Source: an uncultured Spirochaetaceae bacterium
GTDB lineage: Bacteria > Spirochaetota > Spirochaetia > Sphaerochaetales > Sphaerochaetaceae
DNA: 64,000 nt
Assembly: GCA_944389025.1 (NCBI GenBank)
Contig: CALXKU010000002.1
Location: 62,001 to 126,000 of the forward strand
Direction of reading: 5' to 3'
Below, in pieces: positions 1-34,539 of the stretch (positions within the stretch are counted from its first letter, which is position 1; every line of letters starts with the position of its first letter). The notes beneath the pieces were generated by a model. It ran no database searches, was not told where the DNA came from, and saw nothing but the letters and a program-made list of their open reading frames with translations. Made by a program: the position numbers and the translations under genes.

Positions 1-115
1 AGGCTGCCCTTTCGCATGTCACTGCCCCGGATGTGATGAGCGATGCAAGAGAGAGTGTCCTCCCTTTTCCGAAATCGAAAACGATCACATGGCATCATGC
101 TGGCATATGATGTAA
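1..115 (+). CDS. C-terminal end of a cysteine-rich protein (partial)
   Basis: Reading from base 2 there is an open frame of 37 codons ending at TAA 113-115. It encodes a tail with seven cysteines, six of them within the first 20 residues in CxxxCxC and CxxC-like spacing. This looks like a metal-binding or disulfide-rich C-terminus. The rest lies outside the window, so family and function cannot be named. It could also be chance, because the frame is short. The putative promoter of the next gene would fall just beyond its stop. Confidence 0.35.
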   Translation, partial: GCPFACHCPGCDERCKRECPPFSEIENDHMASCWHMM

Positions 116-143
116 GCTGTTCCATTCAAGGCAGAAAAAGAGC

Positions 144-149
144 TATGAT
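144..149 (+). promoter_or_regulatory. Putative -10 box of leaderless DUF2786 gene
   Basis: TATGAT lies exactly six bases before the GTG start at 156, which would place transcription start at or next to the start codon. No convincing -35 box is visible. The call rests mainly on the recurrence of this spacing at other genes in the window. Confidence 0.35.
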
Positions 150-155
150 TATCGG

Positions 156-1187
156 GTGGAAATAAGAACGGTCAGCAGACAATCAATTGCCGAGGCCCAA
201 AGGCTAAAAAAGATAATCGATGATAAGGCGGCGGCTTTCAGCATAAAAAGCCCATTTCTGATCTTCGCCCCCACGGCCGAGGATGGAAGGCTCGGCTATT
301 ATGACAGCCTGCAGAATATGATAGTACTCTCCGATGATTTCCTGAAAGAAAGTGATAAGGGCGATGAGGAGGCGACAGCGCTGCATGAATTAGCGCATAG
401 CGTTGATTACGCACGACGTGGATACAGCACGCATGATTCCGTTTTCCGTGAGATATGCAGAGACTTAGGTGTCCCCGAAGGTTTCGACAAGGCGAAGGTA
501 AAGCTCTATAAGCAGAGGAAAAACACTGCACTCAGACGCATAGATAAGCTCATAAGGCTTTCTGAAAGCCCATTTGAGAGTGAAAGCACCGAAGCACTGA
601 AGAAGGCCCAGCGCCTGATGGCGGAGTATGCGGTAACCGATCAAGAGACAAGGGATGAGGAAGCCGTACTCTATACTCTTCCTCTTGCAGAGAAGAAGCG
701 TTTCTTTTACTACGAAAAGGTGTTTGCTACCATCATAACAAAGCTATCTGGAGCGTTCATACTGAGGGAAAAAAAGAAGGAGAATACAGTGCTCTCAGCA
801 TATGGAACCGTGGGTCAGGTGGAATTCGCATACGAGACATACATCTTTTTACAGGACGCGATGAATGAAGCATACAGAAATGCATCGAAAGCCTATCAGG
901 GTGAGACTGAAAAGCTCTCATTCGCAGCAGGACTTGCATCTAGACTCCTTGAGAAAGTGGAAAGGGAGAGCGATATCGGCGTATCGAAAGCACTGATACT
1001 GAGCACAAAGAGCAACAGGGAAGCTTTTCTCAAGATTCACAGCGAGTTACGCATAAGGGGAAAGAGAAGCCTCTCAAGCTTCTCCAGCCGATCCTCCTTT
1101 GAAGCGGGAGAGAATGCGGCAATGGCCATAAGACTGCCCAAAGAGAAAGGAAGAATCAAGAAAATAGGACTGAAAGGCGGATGTTGA
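156..1187 (+). CDS. SprT-like metalloprotease-type protein with DUF2786 domain
   Basis: The 343-residue protein has an HELAH zinc-metalloprotease-like motif at residues 77-81 with a further His at 93, the arrangement seen in SprT-like putative metallopeptidases. A DUF2786-type helical segment follows at about 126-165 (RIDKLIRLSES...AQRLMAEY), and the remaining half resembles the region that usually follows DUF2786. No signal peptide is seen, so it is probably cytoplasmic. Start choice: GTG at 156. There is no Shine-Dalgarno, but a TATGAT box at 144-149 ends six bases upstream, matching the leaderless arrangement of other genes here. Substrate and role are unknown. The next gene follows after a 66 bp gap and may be co-transcribed. 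Confidence 0.65.
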   Translation: MEIRTVSRQSIAEAQRLKKIIDDKAAAFSIKSPFLIFAPTAEDGRLGYYDSLQNMIVLSDDFLKESDKGDEEATALHELAHSVDYARRGYSTHDSVFREICRDLGVPEGFDKAKVKLYKQRKNTALRRIDKLIRLSESPFESESTEALKKAQRLMAEYAVTDQETRDEEAVLYTLPLAEKKRFFYYEKVFATIITKLSGAFILREKKKENTVLSAYGTVGQVEFAYETYIFLQDAMNEAYRNASKAYQGETEKLSFAAGLASRLLEKVERESDIGVSKALILSTKSNREAFLKIHSELRIRGKRSLSSFSSRSSFEAGENAAMAIRLPKEKGRIKKIGLKGGC

Positions 1188-20560: not shown

Positions 20561-20569
20561 AATATAGCA
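20561..20569 (-). promoter_or_regulatory. Extended -10 of copy 1 (leaderless)
   Basis: On the minus strand TGC-TATATT is followed by six bases (GATGAT) and the ATG at 20554. The same core stands before copy 2. Confidence 0.5.
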
Positions 20570-20585
20570 TATTTTCTGGAGGTTA

Positions 20586-22196
20586 TCAGAGAGTAAGCAC
20601 CTCTTCCTTCCAATCTGTTATATTCCTCTCAGCAGATGAGAAGTTTATACCAAGAAGATGAATGACAGCACCATCTTTTGCATACTTCTCGTAGTATTTC
20701 TTCTCTTTTATCTGGCTCAGGGCCTCATCTGCACTCTTATCCAGTTTGAGTTCGATTATGTAATACACCCCGCTCTTAACATTCACCGTGATATCTATCC
20801 TTCCGACATTCGTGACATCCTCGGCAACCGCCTGTGCGCACATGCCCAGTGCTGAGAAGACGGCTATCTGGAACCCCTTCTCCCTGTCCAGCGTCAGCTG
20901 GTAAGGATAGCTCGTGAACGAGTTGTACAGCACCTTGATGATCCCTGCGGTATCCTCATTCAGAAGTGCCTTCCTCAACGCGGCTACCCGCTCCGATTCG
21001 AACTCCACCCCGTATGTCGTGAGCACCGCGGCATCCATCGCATCCCTCACCTCCTCGTTCGGATACGAGAGTATGTAATCGCCGGCTTCCGACCCCACTA
21101 TCGTGAGATATCCGGCCTGCATAAGATACGAGAGCACGTATCCCCTATCCGGCATCTCTGAAAACACCTTCCTCATCTCGAACCTGTTCGCCTTGGATAT
21201 CGGTACGGAGAACTCATCATCCTTCCTGAAAAGAGAGGCGTTCCTCTCCACTATCTCGTTCACAAGGCTCTGCATACCCGTCTCTATCCAGTAGTTCTTA
21301 AAGCGGCATCCTCCTATGAAGAACCTTCCAATGGATACAGGGTTGTACATCGTAACCGGATTATCGAAAGAGAAGCGGTAGCCGTCATAGAACTCCTTAA
21401 TGCGGGTCCTGAAAGCTCTTCTCGCTTCATCATCAGCAACATTGTTATCTGAGAAATACTTCTCCATGTACGGGGCAAAGTAATGGTCTATCTCTGAATC
21501 GGTGTATCCGCAGATTGCTGCGTACTCAGGATCGGTTGAGATGTCTGTCAGGTTATTGAGCTTCGAGAATATTGATACGTGCTGGAAGCGCGTAACTCCT
21601 GTAAGGAAGCAGAAGCATATGTTCTCTTCTTCCGCCTTGAATATGTTATAGAATGTCGCAAGCTCATCCCGTATCTCATCCAAGGCATCTCCATGGATGT
21701 TCTCCATAAGCGGGTAGTCGTACTCGTCAACGAGGACAACGACCTTCTTGCCATATCTTCCGCAAGCAGCTCTTATAAGGGATGAAAGATAGTCGGATGA
21801 TGTCGGAACCGAAAGATCCATCTCATCATAGACATTAAGAGCTTTCCCGATATTCTCTATCTGCTTCATCATCTGCAAGGAGACGGTCTTCTCATCATGC
21901 TTGTTCACGTTTATCATGTTGAGCCTTATTATCGGATGCTCCTCGAAATCGTAATTGTCGTAGATGTATGTCCCCTTGAAGAGTTCCCTGTTCCCCTTGA
22001 ATATGTTCTCAAGGGTGTCTATCAATAGACTCTTTCCGAATCTTCTAGGGCGGGAGAGAAACCAGTACTTGGACGGACTTCCTTTCCTCAGCATCTTATA
22101 AAGATACTCCGTTTTATCGATATAAAGATATCCGTCCTCTATAAGCTCTCTGAATGACTTCGAATCCGTTGCTATGTATTTCAGTTTCTCTTCCAT
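20586..22196 (-). CDS. AAA-ATPase-like / PD-(D/E)XK nuclease superfamily 9 protein, copy 2
   Basis: A 536-residue tandem paralogue of the neighbouring gene, same length and order. P-loop RPRRFGKSLL, then IIELKLDKSADEALSQI with GRIDITVNV as the nuclease-like core. Segments such as RFQHVSIFSKLNNLTDIS, HYFAPYMEKYFSDNNVAD and FYDGYRFS are nearly identical between copies, while the regions between (about residues 60-160 and 290-460) differ strongly. The mosaic suggests recombination between copies or selection on variable parts. It is leaderless with TGC-TATATT. The Rpn gene upstream is in the same orientation. Confidence 0.8.
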   Translation of the reverse strand: MEEKLKYIATDSKSFRELIEDGYLYIDKTEYLYKMLRKGSPSKYWFLSRPRRFGKSLLIDTLENIFKGNRELFKGTYIYDNYDFEEHPIIRLNMINVNKHDEKTVSLQMMKQIENIGKALNVYDEMDLSVPTSSDYLSSLIRAACGRYGKKVVVLVDEYDYPLMENIHGDALDEIRDELATFYNIFKAEEENICFCFLTGVTRFQHVSIFSKLNNLTDISTDPEYAAICGYTDSEIDHYFAPYMEKYFSDNNVADDEARRAFRTRIKEFYDGYRFSFDNPVTMYNPVSIGRFFIGGCRFKNYWIETGMQSLVNEIVERNASLFRKDDEFSVPISKANRFEMRKVFSEMPDRGYVLSYLMQAGYLTIVGSEAGDYILSYPNEEVRDAMDAAVLTTYGVEFESERVAALRKALLNEDTAGIIKVLYNSFTSYPYQLTLDREKGFQIAVFSALGMCAQAVAEDVTNVGRIDITVNVKSGVYYIIELKLDKSADEALSQIKEKKYYEKYAKDGAVIHLLGINFSSAERNITDWKEEVLTL

Positions 22197-22202
22197 GTTA
22201 TC

Positions 22203-22211
22203 AATATAGCA
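22203..22211 (-). promoter_or_regulatory. Extended -10 of copy 2 (leaderless)
   Basis: TGC-TATATT on the minus strand with six bases (GATAAC) to ATG 22196. Almost the same promoter as copy 1, so duplication probably included it. Confidence 0.5.
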
Positions 22212-22239
22212 TAAAACTTTGTAATATTTCTAAATGCAT

Positions 22240-23133
22240 TCAGATTTTTAGACCAGCGTTTTCAGCAATCTTATATACTTCAGAAAGAGAGAGTCCAAAA
22301 CTTCTAGCAATATCATCTGGTGTTGCTATTCCGTTTTTCAATACAATACCGATTGCATCATCGCGGCCCTGCTCCAGACCTTTTTCCATTCCCTTTTTCA
22401 TGATTCTCTCACTGTAGTTATCAAATGTCATATGTCCAGCCTCCGTGTTCTTGACCTCTCCAACTGCCTCCTTTAGAGGATCGTCATGCATCTCTTCATA
22501 TTCCCTGCACCTGATATTATACATCATTCTTCCCATGTCATCCTCCCCTTCGTAATTGATGTTCACCTCGTGCCTCTCATATGACCAGTCAGTGACCATC
22601 CCGTCCTGGTCTTTGAGGCGTGAGGTGTAGACGGCCTTCCCTCTCCCGTACCTGTCTCCGGCTATCAGCCAGATCGATGTGAATGATGGAAGGGATGAGT
22701 ACTTCTCTCCCTTTGCAAGGAATGCTATGTCGAAAGAGCTTTCGTACATCCTCACCCTCTTTGATAGATCTTCATCCATGCTGTTCTGCATCTCGAAGTT
22801 GATGAACCCTCCATCACTCTCCTCTGCCAGCGCGTCCATTATCACGGAGTGCCCGAGGTTCCTTATCTCGTGCTGGGTAAGGACGCGAACTATCTCCACC
22901 TTCCTTCCCGTTATCGTGCTTGCGAGGTAGCTTGCAGCCTTCTGGCTCTTCTCCATTACAATCTTGAAAAGGGCGTCGCTGCATAGGCTCATGTGCTTAA
23001 GCTCCTCGAGAGCGGTCGCGGATACCTCCTTCGTAAAATACTCATCCCCGCTATCTCTAAGCATCGTCTCCGCCCTTGGATATGACGGCATGAAAGAGAA
23101 CCGGATAACGGAATATCTTTCCTCTCCATTCAT
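22240..23133 (-). CDS. Rpn-family PD-(D/E)XK recombination-promoting nuclease/putative transposase
   Basis: A 297-residue protein of the PF12784 type. The N-terminal DALFKIVM with the downstream GFINFEMQNSMDEDLSKRV matches the PD-(D/E)XK core (E in EMQ) of Rpn proteins, and the middle SFTSIWLIAGD is characteristic. The C-terminus has a helical GMEKGLEQGRDDAI stretch and an HTH-like tail (ATPDDIARSFGLSLSEVYKIAENAG). Rpn proteins promote recombination and some act in defence. Start ATG 23133 follows AGGAGG. It is not a standard transposase, and no terminal repeats are seen. Confidence 0.8.
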   Translation of the reverse strand: MNGEERYSVIRFSFMPSYPRAETMLRDSGDEYFTKEVSATALEELKHMSLCSDALFKIVMEKSQKAASYLASTITGRKVEIVRVLTQHEIRNLGHSVIMDALAEESDGGFINFEMQNSMDEDLSKRVRMYESSFDIAFLAKGEKYSSLPSFTSIWLIAGDRYGRGKAVYTSRLKDQDGMVTDWSYERHEVNINYEGEDDMGRMMYNIRCREYEEMHDDPLKEAVGEVKNTEAGHMTFDNYSERIMKKGMEKGLEQGRDDAIGIVLKNGIATPDDIARSFGLSLSEVYKIAENAGLKI

Positions 23134-23216
23134 ATTTTGTTTCCTCCTCTCATATGAATACAAGAAAGGGGCGTTTTGTTAAATTGAGATGTAAATGAAA
23201 GAAAAAATGTCTGCTA

Positions 23217-23867
23217 TCAAACCGTAGTGACGTTTACCACGATTTCACCCTCGTACTGTCCTTCCGTGAAACCTGTCACAGCATCGCCTTTATCATCCTT
23301 GCGAGTAGGAGCATTGAGAGTCAGCTCAATATCAAAGTTCTTCGATATTCCGGAAGATGCTTTCACTGTTTCGCTTTTAATAAGTTGAAGAGTACGTTTT
23401 TCTTCAGAGACCTTAGATGAAATCTTACTGTCACTACCATCACTGGCATCACTGAAACTCAACAATATATTACCAGACGAATCTCCGTCCCTTTCAGAAA
23501 CGGAAACAGAATAATTCAAACCTATTTCCTCTTTCTCCTTATGATGAAGCATGAAATCTTCTGTCTCCCCATTTCCATAATTCTCAGTCGAACTTGCGAA
23601 TATAAGATCGACATTGAAAGTCCCCACATCATACATATGACAAGTAAAACCGAGTTCCGCGGTAGCCTTAGGTGGGGTGCCAGAAACAAGGGAGAATGTC
23701 ACCTCTTCAGAAAGACGGTTATCACTTCCGTATGAAGTGAAATAGTAGTCGGTGACACCCGGGCGAGTCAGAACAAGATCAAAACTTCCAAATGATATCT
23801 CTGTCGCTGTAATAATAGTCGAATTCAGCAGAGCGACAATGAAAGTAAAATAGAGAAGCTTTTTCAT
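23217..23867 (-). CDS. Exported beta-rich putative pilus subunit (last gene of the cluster)
   Basis: A 216-residue protein with a signal peptide (LLYFTFIVALLNSTIITA). The mature part is nearly all strand-like with many Ser/Thr/Glu; one Cys (LGFTCHMYD). The end GQYEGEIVVNVTTV has the G-x-Y plus alternating-hydrophobic pattern shared by the sister genes, like the closing strand of chaperone-usher pilins. It lacks the IGFS/YW motifs of four other members. The start overlaps the previous stop (TAATG). No hairpin terminator was found downstream, only a short T run. Confidence 0.6.
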   Translation of the reverse strand: MKKLLYFTFIVALLNSTIITATEISFGSFDLVLTRPGVTDYYFTSYGSDNRLSEEVTFSLVSGTPPKATAELGFTCHMYDVGTFNVDLIFASSTENYGNGETEDFMLHHKEKEEIGLNYSVSVSERDGDSSGNILLSFSDASDGSDSKISSKVSEEKRTLQLIKSETVKASSGISKNFDIELTLNAPTRKDDKGDAVTGFTEGQYEGEIVVNVTTV

Positions 23868-24385
23868 TATTTCGCCTCCAGAGCGATTGTAATGGTCCCT
23901 GTGTACTCCGATGTTGATTTGATAGCCTCCACCGGTACGAAGAAATTGAACTCGAAATTATACGTGCGAGGCATTTCATAACTTGTTTCCGACTCTTCAA
24001 AAAATTTCTCTACTGATTCAGAGCTCGCTCCAACTCCCTTAAAGGATGATGTATTACTTCCTGAGTTCGTATACCCGATCATATTTGTTTTATTTCTAAG
24101 CGGGGTTGCCTTTGAGATTTTAACCCTTACAGGATAGGTCGTGAACAGCTGAAGATACATGTAGAAAGGCCCTGTCGTATAACTAGAGAAATCGGAACTG
24201 ACAGAGAAAGTCACGGTTTCAAGTTCTGTATCAGGTTCCATTGAGCCACTTACACGACTTGTCGAGAATCCAATATTGTGGGTCCTTCCAGAGGTGAATC
24301 CAACAGGAACTCTCGCCTTGATATCAGCAAAGAGTGAGAATGATACAAAGATAATGATTATAATGAACAATAATATCTTCTTCAT
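23867..24385 (-). CDS. Exported putative pilus subunit (IGFS-motif protein)
   Basis: 172 residues. Signal peptide with a strongly hydrophobic core (KKILLFIIIIIFVSFSLFA). After it comes VPVGFTSGRTHNIGFS, with IGFS at 38-41 and STSRV directly after, the motif shared with two neighbours. The C-terminus SEYTGTITIALEAK gives the Y-x-G closing strand. No cysteine. The start ATG overlaps the upstream stop (TAATG), so it is coupled. Function is inferred from context and shape only; no catalytic motif is seen. Confidence 0.6.
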   Translation of the reverse strand: MKKILLFIIIIIFVSFSLFADIKARVPVGFTSGRTHNIGFSTSRVSGSMEPDTELETVTFSVSSDFSSYTTGPFYMYLQLFTTYPVRVKISKATPLRNKTNMIGYTNSGSNTSSFKGVGASSESVEKFFEESETSYEMPRTYNFEFNFFVPVEAIKSTSEYTGTITIALEAK

Positions 24386-24948
24386 TACTTCGCCCTCAGA
24401 GTCAGGATGAGATTCCTGTTATAGGCCTCAGCCTTGTAATTAAGAAAATCTTCCTGCTTAATTGATGCTTCAACAATGATTCTCTTACTGTTGATATCCT
24501 GGATTGTTGAGCTTTCTTTAGTATGTAAGACAGCATTAGCAGTATTGCTATCAGTACTGGCTAGGAGTGTACCCTTCTTATCATTCTTATTCTGATCATA
24601 CATCCAAGCATTCCATACAATCTTATCTTCCGTGTCCGTCTTAGAGAAAGACAAGCTCAGTTCCAGCTCCAAAGGTGAGACGATGCGCCAGTAAACCCAC
24701 GATGTACTGTTTACCGCTGTTATCTCTTGATTCTCATCGTAAGGCGAAGAGCTCAGATAAATCTGACTAAGGGAAGAAACGCTTCCTGTCGTCGCTGTTA
24801 CCTGTCCGCTTGAGAATCCGATATCATAGCGCTCTATCCCTTCTGGATTCAATGAAAGATTCAGCACTGTACCCTTGCCCAAGGATGCAGAGAAAACAAA
24901 AGAAAGAGAGAGTATGAAAATGATTGCAATTAAAACAAATCTCTTCAC
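24385..24948 (-). CDS. Exported putative pilus subunit (IGFS/YW family)
   Basis: 187 residues with signal peptide. IGFS at 43-46 and YWRI at 86-89 align with the 26207 and 25539 proteins. The first strand LNLSLNPEG also fits LTVTFDPSA and LDVTLDLTD of those two. The end LNYKAEAYNRNLILTLRAK is a looser version of the closing strand, with no G-x-Y core. The start is GTG overlapping the upstream TGA (GTGA), with GGAGGGG nearby as Shine-Dalgarno. No Cys. Probably a minor subunit. Confidence 0.6.
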   Translation of the reverse strand: MKRFVLIAIIFILSLSFVFSASLGKGTVLNLSLNPEGIERYDIGFSSGQVTATTGSVSSLSQIYLSSSPYDENQEITAVNSTSWVYWRIVSPLELELSLSFSKTDTEDKIVWNAWMYDQNKNDKKGTLLASTDSNTANAVLHTKESSTIQDINSKRIIVEASIKQEDFLNYKAEAYNRNLILTLRAK

Positions 24949-25511
24949 TCCATCCCCTCCGTCTTTATCGTAATCGCCGTGCTATATGTTCCTTCTTCAA
25001 GCATCAGTATGCTCTCGGTCTCCAGTTCGAAAAGAATATCCTTTGATGACGAGATCCCATGTTCAGAAGGTATATGCGTGTGGAACACTTTGGCATCATC
25101 GTATGAATTTTTATCAATAATTGTGGTCCATGAATCGCCGTTCTTCATTTTAAGCGTCCAATGAAGCTCATTCCCGTCATCTCTTTTCATAGAACCATAC
25201 ACCGTAGAAGATATCGATACATTCACCGTATCCTTGGATGTGATTCCTATGGTCGCATAAAACTGCTTAGAGGCCCTCATTCCATCACGCTTAAGAGAAA
25301 GCGCACTCAGCTCACCATCCACCTTATTTCCATTCTCATCAACACCATGGAAGGTGTATGAAGGAGAGAATGGAATCTCTACTGTTCCAAGATCCCACAC
25401 GACAGGAATGCTTCTCGAGACCGGAAGCACAGACAAAGTCGCAGGTTCATCCGCAGCATGAATCTGTACTCCGATAGTAAATAGCAGGATCAGGAACAGT
25501 AGTCTTCTCAT
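24945..25511 (-). CDS. Exported putative pilus subunit
   Basis: 188 residues from ATG 25511 (an in-frame TTG three codons earlier is possible; the local GGAT favours ATG). Signal peptide RRLLFLILLFTIGVQIHA. The body has a PVVWDLGTVEIPFSPSYTF segment and many strands, no Cys. The end EEGTYSTAITIKTEGME carries the G-x-Y closing strand. It does not share IGFS. It is separated by 27 bp from the preceding gene and overlaps the following start. The role is inferred from membership of the cluster. Confidence 0.55.
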   Translation of the reverse strand: MRRLLFLILLFTIGVQIHAADEPATLSVLPVSRSIPVVWDLGTVEIPFSPSYTFHGVDENGNKVDGELSALSLKRDGMRASKQFYATIGITSKDTVNVSISSTVYGSMKRDDGNELHWTLKMKNGDSWTTIIDKNSYDDAKVFHTHIPSEHGISSSKDILFELETESILMLEEGTYSTAITIKTEGME

Positions 25512-25538
25512 TTTATCCAAATGATATAGATATCATCC

Positions 25539-26195
25539 TCAATTTGAAGCAGATATGGACAGCGTTAATGTACCGCTGTATGAACCGTCTACTACACTGG
25601 TAGTAAGAAGGTCGACCGTTGATACCGTAAGAGGAATGCTTCCAGATTTAACAACAGCTGTAGAAGAGTCGTCTGACACAGCCTTAACATCTGCTATTTT
25701 CGTAACAGATTCTGCACCACTAGTACTTGTACCCGCGATACCACCTTCTCCATTTGCAGAGGTAGCAGTAGATGCCTTCCATTTGATTTTTGTTGAACCA
25801 GTATCCTCCGTAGTAGTCATATCGGCTCCCGTCTTCATGCTGATATCAACATCTGCTCCTTTTATAATCCAGTAGATAAAAGCTGTGTCTGCCGCATTCT
25901 GTACATCACCACCGCTTGTAGTCTCGGTAAGCTCAAGAGATGTTAAAACTTTAGCTGTTGGAACAGCATTATTTTCCCCTATAGCTCCAATTGCCTCTGA
26001 TGCAAATCCTATCTCAAAATACTTTCCGAGCTTACCATCAGTTAGATCGAGAGTTACATCAAGTGTTGCTGTTTTGTTACTAAAATCAAGCTGATCGCTT
26101 CCCGTCGCCTCTCCTGATACGCTACCCGTACCATCTGCGAACACCATTCCCATTGCGATAGCCATTATGGCTAATAACGTTAAGACTTTTTTCAT
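25539..26195 (-). CDS. Exported pilus subunit, candidate major fibre subunit (IGFA/YW family)
   Basis: 218 residues. Clean signal peptide (KKVLTLLAIMAIAMGMVFA|D). Mature protein is very rich in Thr, Ser, Gly, Ala and Asp, has no Cys, and has low-complexity stretches, as in major pilins. IGFA at 62-65 and YW at 108-109 align with its neighbours. The end DGSYSGTLTLSISASN is the clearest closing strand. Start ATG 26195 with GGAGGAT just before it is chosen over the ATG at 26207; this is one of the strongest ribosome sites of the operon, which fits a major component. That is an inference. Confidence 0.6.
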   Translation of the reverse strand: MKKVLTLLAIMAIAMGMVFADGTGSVSGEATGSDQLDFSNKTATLDVTLDLTDGKLGKYFEIGFASEAIGAIGENNAVPTAKVLTSLELTETTSGGDVQNAADTAFIYWIIKGADVDISMKTGADMTTTEDTGSTKIKWKASTATSANGEGGIAGTSTSGAESVTKIADVKAVSDDSSTAVVKSGSIPLTVSTVDLLTTSVVDGSYSGTLTLSISASN

Positions 26196-26206
26196 ACTAT
26201 CCTCCA

Positions 26207-26764
26207 TTATTCAGTTTTTATGTTCAGTCTTAATTCACCTGTATATTCTCCGGGGAGCAAATCCCCGTAATTCATTGTTTTAGTGCCGATTGAAAGCTCT
26301 GAGCTTCCAGCCGTTCCATAATAGTGCTCCGGATTCATGAAATCGAGTTCAAGATCATTATCCTCATCACTCGATATGCTCTTGTTCTCCTCTACGAGCC
26401 TGACTTCCCAGTCAATCTCTCCATTGGCGCCTTTGAGCGGTTCATCTATGGAGAGAGTCGCACTGAGCCTGCTAGAAGACATTATTCTCCAGTAGATATA
26501 GATGCTGTTCATATAGGTAGCAGTATCACCATCGATGATGAGATCCTCGATATCACTCTGCCTGAAACCGTACACCTCATCACCGATGCTGTTGATCTCG
26601 TTTCTTGAGAAGCCGATATCTACGATGTTGAGTGCTGACGGATCGAAAGTGACTGTCAGATCTGTTGATAACCCATTCTCTCCAAGGGTCGAATCAAAGA
26701 CCTCGGAGAAAAGGGAAGATGTGATCATGATGGATAATGCTACCGTCATGAACAGTTTTCTCAT
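26207..26764 (-). CDS. Exported putative pilus subunit (IGFS/YW family)
   Basis: 185 residues. Signal peptide to about residue 20. LTVTFDP (36-42), VDIGFSRNEI (IGFS 50-53), YIYWRIMSS (YW 91-92) and a following IDWEVRL make it the best match to the 24385 protein. Closing strand PGEYTGELRLNIKTE. No Cys. The start overlaps the upstream stop by 4 bp (ATGA). Probably a minor or linker subunit; the order in the fibre cannot be read. Confidence 0.6.
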   Translation of the reverse strand: MRKLFMTVALSIMITSSLFSEVFDSTLGENGLSTDLTVTFDPSALNIVDIGFSRNEINSIGDEVYGFRQSDIEDLIIDGDTATYMNSIYIYWRIMSSSRLSATLSIDEPLKGANGEIDWEVRLVEENKSISSDEDNDLELDFMNPEHYYGTAGSSELSIGTKTMNYGDLLPGEYTGELRLNIKTE

Positions 26765-27312
26765 ACGACACTCCTTAAGGCGAAGTCGATATTCATGTCA
26801 TACTCCCCAGGCATTATATTCGGCAGGCTCTCCCAGTAGATTGCCAGTTCTCCAGCCTTATCTCCATGACGGGCTCCAATTGCGGGAACCGTGAGAGTAA
26901 GCGTTCCATCATCATTCACACTTGAGACGATGCCGTCACTTCCAAGATAATCGCTGAAGGCAAGGGATACTGGAATGGACTCCGTTCCATCCTTTGACAG
27001 CAGCCATCCATCTGTAGAAGCTGCAATCTCAACCCTATACGGATTCTCCGTATTTCCATAAAAGAGAATGTCGATAGGTATCATAGTCTGACCCTCTTCA
27101 AGGATGATGTTCTCTAGCCCTATTCCAGGCATGAGATCTCCATTTGAGGTCTCGAATACGAGCTTATCGACCTTGAATGCATCCTTTGGAACAACTACCC
27201 CGTAATCCTCAGGAACAACCGCCCTGAAAGATACCGCCTGCGTGTTTTCTACCGCATATACAACGGAGAAAGAAAAGAAAACGCAAATCATCAAAATTAA
27301 AACCTTCTTCAT
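26761..27312 (-). CDS. Exported beta-rich putative pilus subunit
   Basis: 183 residues with signal peptide (KKVLILMICVFFSFSVVYA). SFRAVVPEDYGVVVP and ILEEGQTMIPIDILFYGN suggest an immunoglobulin-like sandwich. The end PGEYDMNIDFALRSVV has the G-x-Y closing strand. Start ATG 27312 follows GGAGAT, and the 15 bp gap after the upstream 485-residue gene makes this a second strong ribosome site within the operon. No Cys in the mature part. Confidence 0.55.
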   Translation of the reverse strand: MKKVLILMICVFFSFSVVYAVENTQAVSFRAVVPEDYGVVVPKDAFKVDKLVFETSNGDLMPGIGLENIILEEGQTMIPIDILFYGNTENPYRVEIAASTDGWLLSKDGTESIPVSLAFSDYLGSDGIVSSVNDDGTLTLTVPAIGARHGDKAGELAIYWESLPNIMPGEYDMNIDFALRSVV

Positions 27313-27327: not shown

Positions 27328-28785
27328 CTACCTATAGATTGTGTCTCCAGTAGTAATATTTTCTTCTCCATCTGTCACGATATGGACATAAACTTCCTCT
27401 TCATAAACACCTGACTTCATAGTCGGCGCAGACTGCTGATCCATGATGATGCTCACAGTAGCGTCATATTGAGCAAACCAGACCGTTCCTCCGGTTCCTC
27501 CAAACCCTTTAAATGGGATATAGATTGCATTCTCAGGTAAGATATTGTTTGTAACGGCCTCTGTCCCGTCAAAATCATAGACAACCTTATCACTGTCATT
27601 TGAGGTCTGGTTTGTCGTAACTCTTAAATCAAAACCTATATATTCCTCCATCATAGGACTTGATGAAGCACCTCTATGTACAAGGCGGAATCCGTTTGGA
27701 TCAGAATCAAATGGATTACGAGAGGCTGAAAGGAACATGTGATATTTAGGTTGTCTTCTTTTTTCAGGATATCTATAAACCCAATATCCACCTCCCGAAT
27801 GACTCAAATCAATGACCCAGTGATCCCTTACACCTTCTTCATCGATTATGTATTTGTTCCCCGCAATAGAAAGAAAATTTATATTTGCGATATCAACCTG
27901 TCTTCCCTGCATTGAATTGATTGATAGGTTCGATGCTGATGCCATAGGCCTTACAGAGAGGCTTGATGTCGTATCCATACTGCTGATATTCGCAGAGTAA
28001 TAGCCGCTCAGAGGTATTGTTACCTCTGCACTCTGCCCATTCCATTCAACAGTGATTGTTATAACTGCACTGTAATCATCTGCTTCTATAAGATTGTAAG
28101 AACGCCCGTTGTAGATCATGTTTCCACTGGAAGAGACATAGCTACCATTAGGAGCATTTGGATTCTCGTCGTAGGGAAGGCAAAGAACAAGGTCAAACCA
28201 CATGTACTGGTATTGACAATATTCATATTTGCTTTCCTCTACTTTTTCAGTTCTTGGCTTTGTATAAGAATATATAATATCTTTTATTACATTCTCTCCC
28301 TCTTGAAGAAGATATAATCTCTGCGTTCCGTTCGTATTTATTCCAGACTGATTGGCAGATGATGAGTAGCTCTCCTTTAAAATCAGCAACAAAGCAAATG
28401 GCCTTCTTGCTCCAGGATTAGAAATAGATTCAAAGAAGAAGCCATTAGGACAATTCACTGTAATAGTCATAGGTACATTACATTCTGTATTATTCCAATT
28501 CCCCTTATCCTCAGAAAACCATCCACCTTCTTCCGTAACGGTGAATTCCGACTTCATATTCCACACACCACCCAGAGCAACCGTATGTTTGCCAGAATAA
28601 TCACCATTCTCCCAAGTAATATTGGAATCCTGTCCTTGTGAAATTTCCTCTATGCTGAAATTGTATTCCGTCGACGCCATGTTTATTCCGAAGCCACCAT
28701 TCTGCGGGTTTACTCCAGGGGCTCCGGCAAAGATGGAGGAGGCTATCATGATGAGTGATATGAATATCAGTAATATTTTCTTCAT
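27328..28785 (-). CDS. Large exported protein, candidate tip adhesin of the fibre
   Basis: 485 residues, more than twice its sisters. Signal peptide KKILLIFISLIMIASSIFA. The N-terminal part has two Cys pairs (ECNVPMTITVNC and YCQYQYMWFDLVLC) that could be disulfides, the middle is rich in Ser/Asn/Tyr, and the C-terminal part has strands ending SGVYEEEVYVHIVTDGE, then a short tail. Two-domain adhesins at the tip of chaperone-usher pili have a pilin domain at the C-terminus and a binding domain at the N-terminus, which would fit. No carbohydrate-binding motif is recognised. It overlaps the preceding stop by ATGA. Confidence 0.5.
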   Translation of the reverse strand: MKKILLIFISLIMIASSIFAGAPGVNPQNGGFGINMASTEYNFSIEEISQGQDSNITWENGDYSGKHTVALGGVWNMKSEFTVTEEGGWFSEDKGNWNNTECNVPMTITVNCPNGFFFESISNPGARRPFALLLILKESYSSSANQSGINTNGTQRLYLLQEGENVIKDIIYSYTKPRTEKVEESKYEYCQYQYMWFDLVLCLPYDENPNAPNGSYVSSSGNMIYNGRSYNLIEADDYSAVITITVEWNGQSAEVTIPLSGYYSANISSMDTTSSLSVRPMASASNLSINSMQGRQVDIANINFLSIAGNKYIIDEEGVRDHWVIDLSHSGGGYWVYRYPEKRRQPKYHMFLSASRNPFDSDPNGFRLVHRGASSSPMMEEYIGFDLRVTTNQTSNDSDKVVYDFDGTEAVTNNILPENAIYIPFKGFGGTGGTVWFAQYDATVSIIMDQQSAPTMKSGVYEEEVYVHIVTDGEENITTGDTIYR

Positions 28786-29459
28786 ACAGCTCCTCCCTGG
28801 GTCTCTATAGGTGTTATGGTGACTTTTACCTCAGACCCGTAGTTTCCAGGCGGGAGAGTATTGTCATCCGCACTTCTTATGAAATTCGTTGTTGCCTCAT
28901 CGAACATGAATCTGATTGCCCCCTCGACATTTCCTACATACGAGTTATCATCCATACTGATGGAAGGTCTCCATTTCTGTCCGTCTTCTCCGCTACTTCT
29001 ATATGAGAAGGTCTCACTGCTTGCAGGGCTGAGTACTCCATTCTGATATAGCCCAAGCTCACAATCGAAATAGAGGATATAATCCAATGCCCTGTATTCA
29101 TCGCTGTATGTCTCTGTCGAGTTTTCTTGCATGTAGCGCATCGGCTCTCCTGAGAAAGAGATCTCGAACGGGGTGTTTGAAAGAATGCTGAATGTTGCAA
29201 TTCTTCTTCCCGCATCGGGTGCGGAATATGCAACGATATCATCCTCGATATCGAACGGCATGCCAGCAATATAAGCCATGGACTGAGCAGGAATAGCCTT
29301 GATATCTATCTCGCACACCTCATCGTATCCTGCCTGGATGGTAAATGAATCAGAACGCACTAATGTGACAGTACCTGTATCTTCTGCGTTTACGGATGCG
29401 ACAGACATGAGAAGAATGAGGAGTACAATCATGAGTCTGTTAATCTTATTAAACAACAC
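28782..29459 (-). CDS. Exported putative pilus subunit
   Basis: 225 residues from GTG 29459 (GGGGG at proper distance; the stretch overlaps the previous stop). Signal peptide FNKINRLMIVLLILLMSVASVNA. Two Cys in the body (YDEVCEIDI, FDCELGLY) may pair. The closing strand is PPGNYGSEVKVTITPIE, followed by a short polar tail. The segment FSILSNTPFEISFSGEPM is strand-like. Function inferred from cluster membership and the shared end pattern. Confidence 0.55.
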   Translation of the reverse strand: MLFNKINRLMIVLLILLMSVASVNAEDTGTVTLVRSDSFTIQAGYDEVCEIDIKAIPAQSMAYIAGMPFDIEDDIVAYSAPDAGRRIATFSILSNTPFEISFSGEPMRYMQENSTETYSDEYRALDYILYFDCELGLYQNGVLSPASSETFSYRSSGEDGQKWRPSISMDDNSYVGNVEGAIRFMFDEATTNFIRSADDNTLPPGNYGSEVKVTITPIETQGGAV

Positions 29460-30243
29460 TTAGCATAACCCCCACCGTCGCACGGTACTCCCCTCTTGGA
29501 ATGGAGGGATCATCATAATCAGTACTGCTGATTGTCATGGCAACAGCACCCCTATGAATCCAGGCAGCACGAGTTCTCTTTACTCCGTCTGAATCAACGA
29601 CTGGATCCTTATCCAAGACAGACCACTTGGAAATCAGTCCTGGATTATTTCCTTCAGTATTATTTCCTTCATCTACCTCTTCAGAAGGAATGACTTCTGT
29701 GACATTTCCTTCATTTGCCTCGATTTTCGCTTCCTCATAAGTGTTGGAAGAGGCTCCTGTGAACGTATAGGAGAAGTTTGAAAGATCATACCTAGTCCTA
29801 AGCGTGCCTGAGGTTTTCTCATTCCCTTCCTCTGTTTTCTGGTCTGTCAATTTAAAATCATGCATGGTCAGAGAGAGTGTGAAAGAGCCAAGAGTATTTC
29901 CTACAACCCTGTATGAGAATATGACCCTGTCTTTCAAGAACCCTCCATTGCTGATATCCCCAAGGAACTGATCTATGTGCTTCGTGACATCAATGTCAGA
30001 GCCTTTGATGGTTCCATCCTCATTTTTTGATGTCGAAAGCACCTCAAGAGACTCATTCATGGCATCGGTGATAACTACGTACGGATCCTCCTTGAGTCCG
30101 ACCTTATAGCCTCTGAGCTTCAACGTTGAGGAAGAAGAGGCTTTCTCCTCTTCTGACGGAGTGACAGAGGCTGAATCATCAGATGCGAAAAGCATCATAA
30201 GCGATATCAGAAGCAGAATGAGCATTGAAATCATCTTCCTCAT
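29449..30243 (-). CDS. Exported putative pilus subunit next to the usher
   Basis: 264 residues. Signal peptide RKMISMLILLLISLMMLFA, then an acidic Ser-rich linker (SASVTPSEEEKASSSS) before a domain with LKLRGYKVGLKED. The closing strand is PRGEYRATVGVMLSVV at the very end. No Cys. The start overlaps the usher stop (ATGA). Being first after the usher, it may be an early-assembled or terminal subunit, but order alone does not prove that. Confidence 0.55.
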   Translation of the reverse strand: MRKMISMLILLLISLMMLFASDDSASVTPSEEEKASSSSTLKLRGYKVGLKEDPYVVITDAMNESLEVLSTSKNEDGTIKGSDIDVTKHIDQFLGDISNGGFLKDRVIFSYRVVGNTLGSFTLSLTMHDFKLTDQKTEEGNEKTSGTLRTRYDLSNFSYTFTGASSNTYEEAKIEANEGNVTEVIPSEEVDEGNNTEGNNPGLISKWSVLDKDPVVDSDGVKRTRAAWIHRGAVAMTISSTDYDDPSIPRGEYRATVGVMLSVV

Positions 30244-33200
30244 GCCGCCACCTCCGCGCCGTAGAGCATCTCGAAGAATGCATCCTGACTCATGACCCCC
30301 GTCACGCTTAAATCCATCTCATAATCGTATACGTCGCTCATGGTCTCTGCCTCTCTCAGCTCACCCTGCTCAAGCATCTGAAGCAGTCCGAGATCATCAG
30401 GTCTGTCTTCCACACGGAAGTGCACGAGAATCCAGGAATTGCCATATGGCACATCGAACGCGTATTCCCCTACTTCCATAGAGGATGTGACAAAGCGTCC
30501 GTCTCCATCTGTGAAAAGATAGCTCTCAGTCATCTCAAGATTTCCATCCACTATGCGGTATATCGGAGATGAGCCGTTTATCCATGGCGTTCCGTCAGGA
30601 AGGGTTATAAGGGCAGAGGAAGCATAAGTGTTATCCGCATTGAGACGGAGCACGTAGCCTTTCCTGGTAGAGGAAGGTATGTTGACAGGGAATGACTCCG
30701 CGGTTGAGAACGTATCCTTTCCCTGACTGTACACTATGAAGCTGTCCGCAGCTGCTGAGAGCCCCTCATATATGGATACTCCAAAGCTCTGGGGCAGCTC
30801 GCTCATCCTTGAATACCCCGCACTTCCAACAGATACACTGTTACCTCTGAGTGCACCGCTTTGCGAGATGAGAACATAGTTTGAAGGAATGTATGAGCGG
30901 AATGCCAGGAGTCCGTCTGCAAATACGCTTGAAGTCCTGAGCGAGAGATCGGCACCGATTCTTGAAAGAGAATCATCAGCATCGAGTCCGAGAGAGAGAT
31001 CGACATAGTCCCCCTGATAGCTATAGCCCACATCGAACGAATAGTCGTTGAAGTTCATCAGATCCTCGGTATCCACGCTCGCACTCAGGGAGTGTCTTCC
31101 GAGGCCGTACCTTGTAGAGATGGACGTGTTGTAGCTTCCACCCGTTATGCTAGTACTTCCACCGTCATAGCGGATCGTCGCATAGACCCTTCCACTGATG
31201 ACAGGGTTTGTCCTTCCAGTTCCAGAAATGCTCATGGATGCAGAAAGCCAGATGCTTCTGGATGCCGAGAGGCTCAATGTGCCAGATGTGCTCCAGTAGC
31301 TAGAAGAGATCTTATCTGTATAGATTCCTCCCGATCCGGAAAGTCCCCAGCTGACGATGCCAAGACGTCCGGAGAGGGATGTGCTCAGTCCAATCCTGTG
31401 CCTGCCTGAGATTCTGAGCTCCTCAGGCGATGAGTAGTTCAGACCGAGAGAGACTGAACTGAGCTCTGTCATCCCCGTCCTGATCTGATGCCCGATATTC
31501 GCATAGAAACCAAGGGCGTTCCAGGATCCATCTTCCTTTGTGCGCTCAGTAACATTGAGACCGAATCTTGTCGTTCCAAGTATGTTCGCATTAGTTAGCT
31601 CGAAAGCAAACTTCATGTTCGGACGAAGATTCGTCAATTCATTTGGACTGTTCTGGAATGCGAGAGTGGCATCTATCGAGACTGTCGGTGAAAGCCCGGC
31701 TCTTACATATCCTGATAGAACGAAATCGAGGAGATTGTACTCAAGGCTGCGTCCGCCACCGAGCGGGACTCTGAACGAACTATCAAGTTTTGTAGCATTT
31801 GAAGAGACAGTGCTTCTCCCCGTTACAAGGGATGCTCCGTAGTAAACCTCACCAGGAGCAAGGAGGGACGCGGCATAAAGCACATCAAGATCTATGGTCT
31901 TCGCCTCTGAGCCATCAAGGGGGGTCATCGTAATTGTTATCCTGTTAGCCCCCGTGTAGAGTATGAAATCCCTCAGGCGATATGTCCCGATATCGAGCGT
32001 CCTTCTGAATATCTCACGCCCTTCATTGAAAATCTGCACCTCAGAAGGCTTATCAACTACGATCACCTCCTCTATCTGGCTTGGTCTTCTGTATGTGTTA
32101 GGCGCATATGCGTAGCTTCTGTCGAACCTTATTCCGACGCTTGAACCCCTTGGGGAGAAAAGATCGGAAGAGACATTTCCCCAGCTGAGGCGGAGGAGAG
32201 AATCAGGGAAATCATAATGGAAACGGTATGAGCCGAGGCTGAACGAGAAGGAATACGGTGTCAAACCAATGTAATAGTTGAAATCGAGATAGAGATCATA
32301 AAGGCGGGCCGAATTCGATGCGGAGAATGAGAGAGAAAGCCCGTTCTTTATATTCCTTCCTAGGAAATTCCTGACTCTCGCATTAAGATAATATGATGAA
32401 GTGAGTGTGAACACTGCCGGCTCAAGATCGATTCCACCTGTTATCGGACGCCTCGTATGGCGGAAGCTCGAGAGGCTGCCGATGCTCAGTATCTGTATCG
32501 GCATATCCTCAGGAGAGAGGGTCAGCCTGACCTCGTAGGAAATCGCATCATAGCTTGCCTCAGCACCGAGAGAGGTGATGTAATCAAGTGAGATATACTC
32601 TGAAGATGAAGAGAAGAGCCTCGATGCGAACTCATCCGTTACCGTTCCGCTGAGGTATGTCATGAGCTCAGAAGAAAGGAGGGAGACCTCCCCGTTTTCC
32701 GCATAAACGGTTATCGATCCCGTTTCCGAATCGTTGACGAAGAGTGTCATGTAATAGATTCCATCCTCAAGGGTAAGGTCATCCTCGCCTGCGATGTAGA
32801 AGGAGGCCCAGAAATCATCAAGAGAGGCATCGGCAAAGACATCCTCCTCCTCATCGACCAGATATGCATTGACTTCTTCTTTGAAAAGAGGAGCGGAGGG
32901 AATCTCAATCTCTACAATCGTACTCTCCTTCACAATAAGAGAAGGCACAGAAGGAGGCGTCACCTCATAGAGGCGTGGTATGTAGTACATCATCGGTTTC
33001 TCTGGAACTCTGATTGAATCAACCACAACTTCTTCTCCTTCGTCCTCAACTTTCTCCTCAGCCGTGCTCAGCAGCACCTGAGAATCATGTTTTTCCTCTC
33101 CTTCTTCCTCAGCACTGGCTGATGGAATCCTTTCACTTTCATCAATGCTCTCCATCACGGGAGATTCCTCTACTGCATCAGCGTGGGAAGACACATTTTC

Positions 33201-33782
33201 AACATCCTTAAAAGGCGTCTCTTCCTCTTCTTTTGCAGTTTCTTCACTCTTTGTGGCATCATCTGATGCCCCAGATGCAGTTTCTTCCACAGCATCTTCA
33301 AGCGGATCGGAAATGCTTTGCTCAATAGAGACTGGCAGCATCTTTTCCGCCTCTGCCGCCAAACCCCCCTTCACGGCGGCATCTAATAAAGGAATCTGAG
33401 GGAGGAGAATCTCCTCTTCTGGTTCAGGGGGAATTGAATAGGATCCACCCTCCCCCAGAGACTCGGTTATTTCATCTCTTTCTTCAGGCATGAAGAAGAG
33501 TATTCCGACAGCGACGAGTAACGCCATCATTACAAGGTAGATGAGGACAGTGCCACGTATTGAGCTGCTCTTTTTCTCCTTCTCGAATTTTTCTCTGAGA
33601 AAGAGGATGAGCTCCGCATCCGCATAGCTTAGGAAGGCCAGGAGAGCAAGCAGAGAGACTCCATCCCCCGCACTCTCATAAGCAGATGCCAGTACTTCAT
33701 GCGCCGTCCATGCCGTTCCCGATACGAGAAAAACAAGGAGAACGGAAAGCGCAAGAAGAAGAGCAACCTTCTTCCTGTCCAT
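30240..33782 (-). CDS. Usher-like outer-membrane assembly platform with inner-membrane anchor
   Basis: 1180 residues. Residues 1-100 hold two or three hydrophobic helices (about 5-23, 41-62 and 78-98) with the basic REKFEKEKKSSSIRG between the last two, so the rest faces the periplasm. Residues about 100-300 are an acidic, proline-containing linker. Residues about 300-440 resemble the usher N-domain (VNAYLVDEEEDVFADASL; SLLSSELMTYLSG). A barrel follows from about 450, with the plug-like DKPSEVQIFNEGREIFRRTL and GTYRLRDFILYTGANRI (578-613), both close to usher consensus. The C-end (ITLPDGTPWINGSS; SSMEVGEYAF) resembles the usher C-domain. It would secrete and polymerise the subunits. Start ATG follows GGGGGTAGAGT. 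Confidence 0.75.
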   Translation of the reverse strand: MDRKKVALLLALSVLLVFLVSGTAWTAHEVLASAYESAGDGVSLLALLAFLSYADAELILFLREKFEKEKKSSSIRGTVLIYLVMMALLVAVGILFFMPEERDEITESLGEGGSYSIPPEPEEEILLPQIPLLDAAVKGGLAAEAEKMLPVSIEQSISDPLEDAVEETASGASDDATKSEETAKEEEETPFKDVENVSSHADAVEESPVMESIDESERIPSASAEEEGEEKHDSQVLLSTAEEKVEDEGEEVVVDSIRVPEKPMMYYIPRLYEVTPPSVPSLIVKESTIVEIEIPSAPLFKEEVNAYLVDEEEDVFADASLDDFWASFYIAGEDDLTLEDGIYYMTLFVNDSETGSITVYAENGEVSLLSSELMTYLSGTVTDEFASRLFSSSSEYISLDYITSLGAEASYDAISYEVRLTLSPEDMPIQILSIGSLSSFRHTRRPITGGIDLEPAVFTLTSSYYLNARVRNFLGRNIKNGLSLSFSASNSARLYDLYLDFNYYIGLTPYSFSFSLGSYRFHYDFPDSLLRLSWGNVSSDLFSPRGSSVGIRFDRSYAYAPNTYRRPSQIEEVIVVDKPSEVQIFNEGREIFRRTLDIGTYRLRDFILYTGANRITITMTPLDGSEAKTIDLDVLYAASLLAPGEVYYGASLVTGRSTVSSNATKLDSSFRVPLGGGRSLEYNLLDFVLSGYVRAGLSPTVSIDATLAFQNSPNELTNLRPNMKFAFELTNANILGTTRFGLNVTERTKEDGSWNALGFYANIGHQIRTGMTELSSVSLGLNYSSPEELRISGRHRIGLSTSLSGRLGIVSWGLSGSGGIYTDKISSSYWSTSGTLSLSASRSIWLSASMSISGTGRTNPVISGRVYATIRYDGGSTSITGGSYNTSISTRYGLGRHSLSASVDTEDLMNFNDYSFDVGYSYQGDYVDLSLGLDADDSLSRIGADLSLRTSSVFADGLLAFRSYIPSNYVLISQSGALRGNSVSVGSAGYSRMSELPQSFGVSIYEGLSAAADSFIVYSQGKDTFSTAESFPVNIPSSTRKGYVLRLNADNTYASSALITLPDGTPWINGSSPIYRIVDGNLEMTESYLFTDGDGRFVTSSMEVGEYAFDVPYGNSWILVHFRVEDRPDDLGLLQMLEQGELREAETMSDVYDYEMDLSVTGVMSQDAFFEMLYGAEVAA

Positions 33783-33807: not shown

Positions 33808-34539
33808 TTATGCCGAATAGGAATAATCATACGCGGCCTGAGACTGGAACTCCGTGGCCCCGGAGAGAGACTCCGGAATATCAATTACAATTCTGAGGGT
33901 GCTTCCCGTTAAGAGATTCTGACCGCTGACAGCCCCGATTTCCCCTTCGCTGAGCGTGTAGGATGATCCATCATTTCCCGATACGGTGACAGAGAGGTCA
34001 TTGAGCATCTGATGCACACTTCCCGTGTTCTCAATCCTGATCTCAAGCTTTCCCTCTTCATTGATATCAGCAGTCGTGCTAACCCGTTCCACCACCATGG
34101 ATGGACGGACGTATGCACTTGTGGAATAGACGAAGAGGAAGGAAATCATCTGTCCTGATTCTTCCGTCTGGGCACCACGCGGCATTGCAATCTGTTCTGA
34201 TATGATTCTGAATGAGAGTTCGCGTGTGACAGTCTGAGGACCTCTGTATTGGACACGTACGAGCTGAGAAGCCTGAGGCGCGATTATCATGCGCTTCGGC
34301 TGTATCTGGAAATATGCGGATGCATCCTCCGTATACTCGTTTCCATCAAGGTCGATGTTCCTAGAATACGCATTGATCTCAATGGCTATCGGGCTGTCGG
34401 AATCGTTTGTTATCGTGTACACACGCGCCGAACCGGCACCGGTTGGATCGTAGGTGGCACTTAACGGTGACAGCTGATAGGCATATAAGGCTGCGCAGAA
34501 AAAGAGCAGCACGAAAAGTATTATTAATCCTTTTTTCAT
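33808..34539 (-). CDS. Periplasmic pilus-assembly chaperone
   Basis: 243 residues. Signal peptide MKKGLIILFVLLFFCAALYA. Domain 1 shows the PapD-like pattern: LSPLSATYDPTGAGSARVYTITNDSDSPIAIEI, then FQIQPKRMIIAPQASQLVRV, then the LSFRIISEQI strand, equivalent to the conserved YR region. Domain 2 begins near STTADINEEG. It has no Cys after the signal peptide. The sequence is nearest to the archaic (Csu/sigma-type) chaperones by eye. It donates a strand to subunits in the periplasm and hands them to the usher. Start ATG follows AGGGGG, 25 bp before the usher gene. It is the first gene of the operon. Confidence 0.85.
   Translation of the reverse strand: MKKGLIILFVLLFFCAALYAYQLSPLSATYDPTGAGSARVYTITNDSDSPIAIEINAYSRNIDLDGNEYTEDASAYFQIQPKRMIIAPQASQLVRVQYRGPQTVTRELSFRIISEQIAMPRGAQTEESGQMISFLFVYSTSAYVRPSMVVERVSTTADINEEGKLEIRIENTGSVHQMLNDLSVTVSGNDGSSYTLSEGEIGAVSGQNLLTGSTLRIVIDIPESLSGATEFQSQAAYDYSYSA

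Follow-up and report, generated by a model that had tools for sequence, protein, structure and literature searches.

A divergent chaperone-usher operon of Sphaerochaetaceae whose usher probably retains an inner-membrane anchor and a long acidic linker

We analysed a 64,000-nucleotide stretch of DNA (the window) from an uncultured Spirochaetaceae bacterium, positions 62,001 to 126,000 of contig CALXKU010000002.1 (assembly GCA_944389025.1). The product of the gene at 30240..33782 is an usher, and the locus around it is a chaperone-usher operon (Table 1). Known ushers have a cleaved signal peptide and neither an anchor nor a long linker. The window usher, instead, had no signal peptide directly before its N-terminal domain (NTD); three helices and a 220-residue linker preceded the N-tail. 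The start codon is the ATG at 33782, with a G-rich Shine-Dalgarno (SD)-like stretch upstream. A longer N-terminus is impossible, because the open frame opens only one codon upstream of this ATG. Translation from beyond residue 100, which a previous sequence-only reading of this DNA had left conceivable, was not borne out either: the next in-frame ATG codons (residues 85, 86 and 98) lacked an SD-like sequence, and initiation further downstream would yield a protein with no export signal.

The same reading had placed two or three membrane helices with a basic loop in residues 1-100, an acidic Pro-containing linker in residues 100-300, and the usher-like part near residue 300. The helices were confirmed, and hydropathy (three membrane segments in residues 1-98) and the AlphaFold model set their number at exactly three. 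The basic loop stood as described (residues 62-77, net +3). The linker was also found, with its limits moved to about 97-316; measured as far as residue 328, the NTD marker, its D/E, K/R and P fractions were 0.28, 0.06 and 0.08. The usher-like part broadly agreed as well, with the probable chaperone-binding tail starting at about residue 317.

Table 1. Features of the window locus and, in the last row, related loci elsewhere in the family (aa, amino acids; KD, Kyte-Doolittle hydropathy; pLDDT, predicted local distance difference test; CTDs, C-terminal domains)
Feature	Position	Strand	Basis or remark
Usher with putative anchor, 1180 aa	30240..33782	(-)	Open reading frame; AlphaFold model; Foldseek/VIA-align match to FimD/PapC
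Membrane helix 1 (residues 3-35), predicted N-in	33678..33776	(-)	KD peak 6-24 = 2.57; AlphaFold helix 3-35
Membrane helix 2 (residues 40-66)	33585..33665	(-)	KD peak 44-62 = 2.03; AlphaFold
Basic loop (residues 62-77, LREKFEKEKKSSSIRG), predicted cytoplasmic	33552..33599	(-)	Sequence; net charge +3 between helices 2 and 3
Membrane helix 3 (residues 74-96), then predicted acidic periplasmic side	33495..33563	(-)	KD peak 79-97 = 2.95; AlphaFold
Acidic linker (residues 97-316), disordered, carrying PxxPx-hydrophobic motifs	32835..33494	(-)	pLDDT <50 for 93-322; composition; motif enrichment across family
Usher N-tail (residues 317-340), motif DDFWASFYIAGED, probably binding the chaperone	32763..32834	(-)	Conserved across rows; role by analogy with PapC N-tail
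Usher NTD (residues 341-433)	32484..32762	(-)	AlphaFold; FimD 26 aligns to residue 335
β-barrel with plug (residues 458-962)	30897..32411	(-)	AlphaFold; Foldseek; VIA-align
CTDs (residues about 1029-1144)	30351..30698	(-)	AlphaFold; FimD 834 aligns to residue 1143
C-terminal tail helix, motif FFEMLY, N-tail pattern repeated	30258..30287	(-)	61/74 full-length ushers
PapD-like periplasmic chaperone	33808..34539	(-)	PF00345 PapD_N 24.4 bits, cut-off 23; gene precedes usher
Pilin-like secreted protein 1	29449..30243	(-)	60 family members, 32 at position 1; GxYxxx terminal strand
Pilin-like secreted protein 2	28782..29459	(-)	All 32 family members at position 2
Larger secreted protein 3 (485 aa), candidate tip adhesin	27328..28785	(-)	Family of 31, all at position 3
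Pilin-like secreted protein 4	26761..27312	(-)	Family of 26
Pilin-like protein 5, modelled as Ig-like pilin	26207..26764	(-)	pLDDT 88; Foldseek
Pilin-like protein 6	25539..26207	(-)	Same family as protein 5
Pilin-like protein 7	24945..25520	(-)	Same family as protein 5
Pilin-like protein 8	24385..24948	(-)	Same family as protein 5
Pilin-like protein 9	23867..24385	(-)	Same family as protein 5
Pilin-like protein 10	23217..23867	(-)	Same family as protein 1
Single-helix chaperone-usher loci upstream of V-ATPase operon	L098-L101, L103, L104, L106-L109, L112-L122, L124-L127, L129-L134, L139-L146, L148		

That the protein is an usher was upheld by its fold and by a profile linkage to a spirochaetal usher recognised by Pfam. 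The AlphaFold model, built from a 44-row alignment (A2) with a mean pLDDT of 73, retrieved only FimD or PapC among its first 18 Foldseek matches in the PDB (best E 2.1e-30). Superposition on FimD/PapC with VIA-align gave a best Z of 19.3 (root-mean-square deviation, rmsd, 7.5; 607 aligned), and in the alignment with 3rfz_E (Z 18.3, rmsd 8.6, 722 aligned) FimD 26..834 corresponded to model residues 335..1143. Following the linker, the model contained a short helix (317-326), the NTD and barrel, mostly β-structure to residue 1164, and a last helix (1166-1174). Profile A2 aligned with an usher from another Spirochaetia family (locus L167) at 99.7% in hhalign (E 1.1e-25), and the L167 usher passes PF00577 (34.6 bits, cut-off 27.1). 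PF00577 itself found nothing in the whole genome of the window; a match to the Pfam Usher profile is a detection rule and not a defining trait of ushers. We assigned the locus to the chaperone-usher operons because the usher fold, the link to L167, the PapD-like chaperone and the pilin model (see below) all point there. As in FimD and PapC systems, the NTD, the barrel with plug and the CTDs follow in the same order and a PapD-like chaperone is encoded next door, whereas the putative anchor, the long linker and an extra aromatic C-tail set the window usher apart, and it is too divergent for PF00577.

The N-terminal module is real, in frame and conserved in architecture across 15 genera. We reduced 120 usher sequences to 81 distinct N-termini, with all 15 positive genera represented; L068, whose N-terminus lies beyond the contig end, and the C-terminal fragments of the frameshifted L126 and L141 were left out, and the N-terminal pieces of the latter two were counted. 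Start sites were set by hand in eight rows (L062, L080, L105, L128, L131, L133, L134 and L135); the one chosen in L131 is not a start codon, and that in L135 lies one residue early. At least one hydropathy-defined membrane helix and a linker were present in 81/81 N-termini, a recurrence beyond what chance would give. At a threshold of 1.6, the helix number was one in 42 rows, three in 21, five in nine, seven in one, two in seven and six in one, that is, odd in 73/81; at 1.4, the corresponding numbers were 40 with one, 24 with three, seven with five and two with seven, besides three with two, three with four and two with six. The N-terminal flank was net positive in 79/81 rows, and the 40 residues after the last helix were net negative in 77/81. 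In the 31 odd multi-helix rows, the mean charge was +1.58 over 73 predicted cytoplasmic flanks and loops and -0.88 over 42 periplasmic loops. An odd count with alternating charge is what would be expected if selection acted on nothing but the periplasmic placement of the usher.

The helix module itself drifts: the median identity to the window among 33 multi-helix-type rows was 18%, against 44% for NTD plus barrel, and hydrophobicity and topology were kept despite this. Across residues 1-98, one and the same polar or charged letter was retained in at least 20 of the 34 multi-helix-type A2 rows only in columns 4 and 76, both basic. Since these are the only such columns, no coupling residue is visible, and the module looks like a passive anchor and not an energy converter. 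Two ushers (L008:1483-5097 and L014:739-4467) had two added helices inside the linker (152-203 and 166-215, respectively), making three plus two, still odd at the 1.6 threshold. We also noted a stand-alone protein with three helices and an acidic Pro linker but no usher, in the window's genome (L171:4969-5610, G000:C9) and in G026 (L031:5016-5951), at the same place between copZ-like and serA-like genes. As a general partner of the usher this paralogue was rejected, being confined to these two genomes; 4/48 genomes of the genus were matched, the other two in their ushers.

Linkers had a median length of 163 residues and ranged from 105 to 435, with L140 set aside because a second hydropathy peak lies inside its linker. 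Their mean composition was D/E 0.24, K/R 0.04 and P 0.13, and some genera carried TonB-like (EP)n stretches (L116, L136-L138). Even the shortest, of 105 aa, would measure ~38 nm when fully extended, which supports a linker long enough to reach the outer membrane. Motifs of the form [IVL]PxxPx-hydrophobic occurred 108 times in 54/81 linkers, compared with 18.7 ± 4.4 in shuffled sequences (a shuffle that ignores relatedness). The N-tail motif, DDFWASFYIAGED in the window, was strongly conserved across the usher rows. PMC8410936 describes hydrophobic residues of the PapC N-tail as binding the chaperone, and by analogy the N-tail here is a probable chaperone-binding tail. Tail counts were made on 74 of the 81 rows, seven being left out. 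The pattern [FY]-[WFD]-x-x-hydrophobic-[YF] was present in the last 70 residues of 61/74 full-length ushers (shuffled mean 4.1, maximum 10 in 500, relatedness ignored), and it also fitted 56/74 N-tails. An aromatic motif inside the linker was tried and dropped, as it was not enriched (4/74; shuffled mean 0.9, maximum 7). The N-tail, the C-tail and the linker motifs may have a shared partner, most simply the chaperone.

Sphaerochaetaceae are round, non-spiral relatives of the spirochaetes. Looking for the same module in other spirochaetes, as the sequence-only reading had proposed, placed it in 15 genera of this family. Profile A1 matched 105/139 Sphaerochaetaceae genomes in 15/22 genera, profile A2 matched 106/139, and the usher was matched in 36/48 genomes of the window's genus (Candidatus Ornithospirochaeta). 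Six genomes with a match are single contigs (G090, G091, G093, G100, G110 and G113). A phylum-wide draw of 392 genomes gave 34 matches, 29 of them in Sphaerochaetaceae. The remaining five were weak; four (G419, G480, G483 and G486) lay in chaperone-usher-like operons, and the fifth (G184) covered only the anchor and linker part of the profile, in an unrelated-looking protein of 689 aa. The usher gene is frameshifted into two open reading frames in L126 (G110) and L141 (G081), either as a pseudogene or through sequencing error. An Ornithospirochaeta-type usher operon also occurs on L068 (JAHLFB010000141.1), labelled Candidatus Phocaeicola faecipullorum, probably a mis-binned contig.

We compared the single-helix N-termini with the export signals of chaperones and pilins from the same loci. 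The median apolar run was 21 residues in single-helix anchors, 18 in chaperones and 16 in pilins, and the hydropathy peak was 2.78 versus 2.17 in both chaperones and pilins. Loose signal peptidase I (SPase I) sites were found in 15/42 single-helix N-termini versus 51/87 chaperones and 263/346 pilins; the strict A-x-A form did not separate the groups (4/42, 10/87 and 42/346, respectively). Run length, peak and SPase I sites are thus suggestive of an anchor over a signal peptide. For the multi-helix rows, a cleaved signal alone would be insufficient, because they contain three to seven helices. Four ushers of other Spirochaetia (L166-L169) had signal-peptide-like starts that led straight into the NTD with no linker, and no such aromatic tail in their last 25 residues; the hydropathy peaks of the G419 and G486 ushers were only 1.58 and 1.47, with the true start uncertain. 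BamA homologues from three Sphaerochaetaceae genomes had ordinary short N-terminal hydrophobic segments (3/3), on which we rejected a general anchoring of outer-membrane proteins in the family. Since neither the outside ushers nor the BamA controls have an anchor, it is most simply a derived trait of the usher in Sphaerochaetaceae.

A tree built on NTD plus barrel alone, from which rows with fewer than 600 aa after the NTD were left out (81 reduced to 76; midpoint root for drawing only), separated a multi-helix clade of 35 rows (SH-aLRT 100) from a single-helix clade of 41 rows, the latter including L140, for which two segments were counted. A single helix is typical of most genera, and three, five or seven occur in the clade of the window. 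G055 has both kinds of usher. Multi-helix ushers stood in operons with pilin genes. Single-helix ushers mostly precede a V-ATPase operon: V-ATPase subunit genes lay within 6 kb downstream of the usher in 40/89 loci (about 35 distinct after removal of contigs appearing twice), all single-helix (Table 1) and with no adjoining pilin genes; in L119, L124, L132 and L100 some 10 to 160 bases separate the usher from the start of the first V-ATPase gene. The other 49/89 consist of the window, the loci with multi-helix ushers and eight single-helix ones (L123, L128, L135-L138, L147 and L149), some being truncated at a contig end. In the window's genome, the V-ATPase operon is elsewhere, with no usher beside it (L205). 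Of three single-helix genomes inspected, two have pilin-like clusters elsewhere, of eight genes in L203 and three in L204, and the third has one such gene (L202).

In the window operon, ten genes for secreted pilin-like proteins follow the usher in the same direction, and these proteins belong to five families, which also occur at other loci. Pfam and NCBIfam did not recognise these proteins. We modelled one of the ten (window 26210-26764, 59-row alignment, pLDDT 88), and its first 26 Foldseek matches in the PDB were all fimbrial subunits or adhesins, the best being CfaB (E 7.5e-4). Searching the PDB by sequence with the chaperone gave weak matches only, including EcpB (E 0.065). Adjoining the pilin operon at its end, window 20003-23163 encodes two related proteins (536 aa and 184 aa), presumably AAA/PD-(D/E)XK-like, and another gene, which we take to resemble the Rpn family.

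We propose that the N-terminus of this chaperone-usher pilus usher is an uncleaved inner-membrane anchor, joined by an acidic Pro-containing linker of 105-435 residues to the N-tail and NTD, and assign this a probability of roughly 0.62. The N-terminal helices would direct the usher to the translocon and remain embedded in the inner membrane, the N-terminus being cytoplasmic as hydropathy, charge and the odd count suggest. The linker would cross the periplasm, and the barrel, judging by its fold, would sit in the outer membrane like that of any usher. By homology, the aromatic N-tail, and probably the C-tail too, would capture complexes of pilins with the PapD-like chaperone; the pilins would then be polymerised through donor-strand exchange and expelled via the pore. 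The anchor, a passive tether and not an energy converter, may hold the platform in fixed positions between the membranes and keep the capture tails close to the site where subunits exit the inner membrane. Somewhat short of even odds, we tentatively extend this to a trans-envelope usher, one chain held by one to seven helices in the inner membrane and by its barrel in the outer, in which the linker motifs, the N-tail and the C-tail form a multi-site conveyor that picks up chaperone-pilin complexes on their emergence at the inner membrane and delivers them to the pore. The sequence-only reading had suggested a protein that links both membranes, giving energy input or fixed assembly sites. Usher identity, anchor topology and sufficient linker length favour the link itself, and fixed assembly sites are compatible with our data; energy input was not supported.

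Several observations weigh against the anchored usher. Pfam and NCBIfam gave no match for the window protein at E ≤ 1, and neither profile A2 nor the usher alone found any usher chain in the PDB by sequence; the top A2 matches there fell in the N-terminal low-complexity part and were judged artefacts. The AlphaFold confidence of the membrane helices was only about 45-60. The helix counts, which come from a simple hydropathy window and not from a trained predictor, were even in 8/81 rows at 1.6 and again in 8/81 at 1.4. Five of the eight rows even at 1.6 became odd at 1.4, as five odd ones turned even, and three were even at both thresholds (L002 and L140 with two helices; L005 with four at 1.4). 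Moreover, a G-T-A sequence ends at residue 24, so SPase I cleavage after helix 1 is possible, which in the three-helix form would leave two helices and the same C-terminal topology. Cleavage may also occur inside the linker. Taken further, this would make the whole module a targeting or propeptide region, cut off by SPase I or a periplasmic protease to give an ordinary mature usher. The loose SPase I-like sites near the helix end in 15/42 single-helix N-termini, the protease-prone nature of disordered linkers and the fast drift of module and linker (18-21% identity) speak for such removal. We nevertheless regard it as unlikely: a mere signal has no use for three to seven helices, one would not expect a mostly odd count and an ever-present linker of at least 105 residues (without L140) to be maintained across 15 genera in a discarded propeptide, and the signals on chaperones and pilins from these operons are shorter and ordinary. 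We infer that the chain stays intact, with the anchor in the mature protein. A lipoprotein signal with a lipid-anchored usher is scarcely credible, because a relaxed lipobox fits only 4/42 single-helix rows and the window anchor (residues 1-98) contains no Cys, even though 32/42 single-helix rows have a Cys in residues 16-45.

The anchor might instead serve a chiefly structural role, above all in the single-helix clade, with the usher or its anchor keeping both membranes of an unusual type of spirochaetal envelope together and pilus assembly secondary. Such a role would suit the 40/89 loci in which single-helix chaperone and usher genes stand directly upstream of the V-ATPase operon without pilin genes, as well as the stand-alone helix-plus-linker proteins of two genomes. 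We consider it improbable, since the NTD, N-tail, plug and CTDs are all kept and pilin-like clusters exist elsewhere in single-helix genomes (L203, L204); no usher was seen in 34/139 Sphaerochaetaceae genomes, and it is therefore not an essential glue. A TonB-like coupling, in which proton-motive force taken up by the helices would be turned into a pull on the NTD or plug, finds some resemblance in the single N-in helix with an (EP)n linker of L116 and L136-L138. Members of the MotA/ExbB family (ExbD was not searched for) were not found in the window's genome, which is 97.6% complete, or in 9/13 Sphaerochaetaceae genomes including this one. Together with the passive character of the helices, in which two basic columns alone are conserved, this makes energy coupling very improbable; according to PMC8410936, the canonical pathway is driven by donor-strand exchange and needs no such energy.

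We classify the system as a variant of the chaperone-usher type, because helices and a linker replace the cleaved signal peptide before the NTD. Archaic (sigma, Csu-type) chaperone-usher systems, with which we group those of other Spirochaetia (L166-L169), are also close: in each of these four loci the usher is preceded by a chaperone-like gene and followed by a further secreted gene. The secreted gene is SCPU in L166, and the L167 usher is the one linked to A2 by profile. Their ushers (frames of 786-893 aa) begin with a signal-peptide-like segment and then the NTD, unlike that of the window. TonB shares the N-in membrane helix and the Pro/Glu-rich periplasmic spacer, but the window usher lacks the TonB C-terminal domain, its spacer ends in a β-barrel usher and no ExbB-type partner was found in the genome. 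In type II secretion, GspB/OutB ties a pore of the outer membrane to the inner membrane (PMC9239104) as a separate protein bridging to the secretin, whereas here anchor and pore would be one chain. In TamA-TamB (PMC11014939), an inner-membrane protein is linked with an outer-membrane barrel across the periplasm, as proposed here, but through two proteins and with another function. We found no description of an anchored usher in the searchable literature on ushers, spirochaetes and trans-envelope barrels, with subscription papers mostly outside its reach; a chaperone-usher system with an inner-membrane-anchored usher is an arrangement new to that literature.

The usual view of ushers is of free platforms in the outer membrane, awaiting chaperone-subunit complexes that reach them by diffusion, and an usher covalently tied to the inner membrane would break with this picture. 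It would also raise the question of how the barrel travels from the translocon to the β-barrel assembly machinery (BAM) with its N-terminus kept in the inner membrane. Whether local capture at the inner membrane or diffusion limits pilus assembly becomes testable, and the spirochaetal ushers without an anchor offer a natural contrast for such experiments. In any case, the operon adds a divergent chaperone-usher branch in Spirochaetota, unseen by Pfam and NCBIfam.

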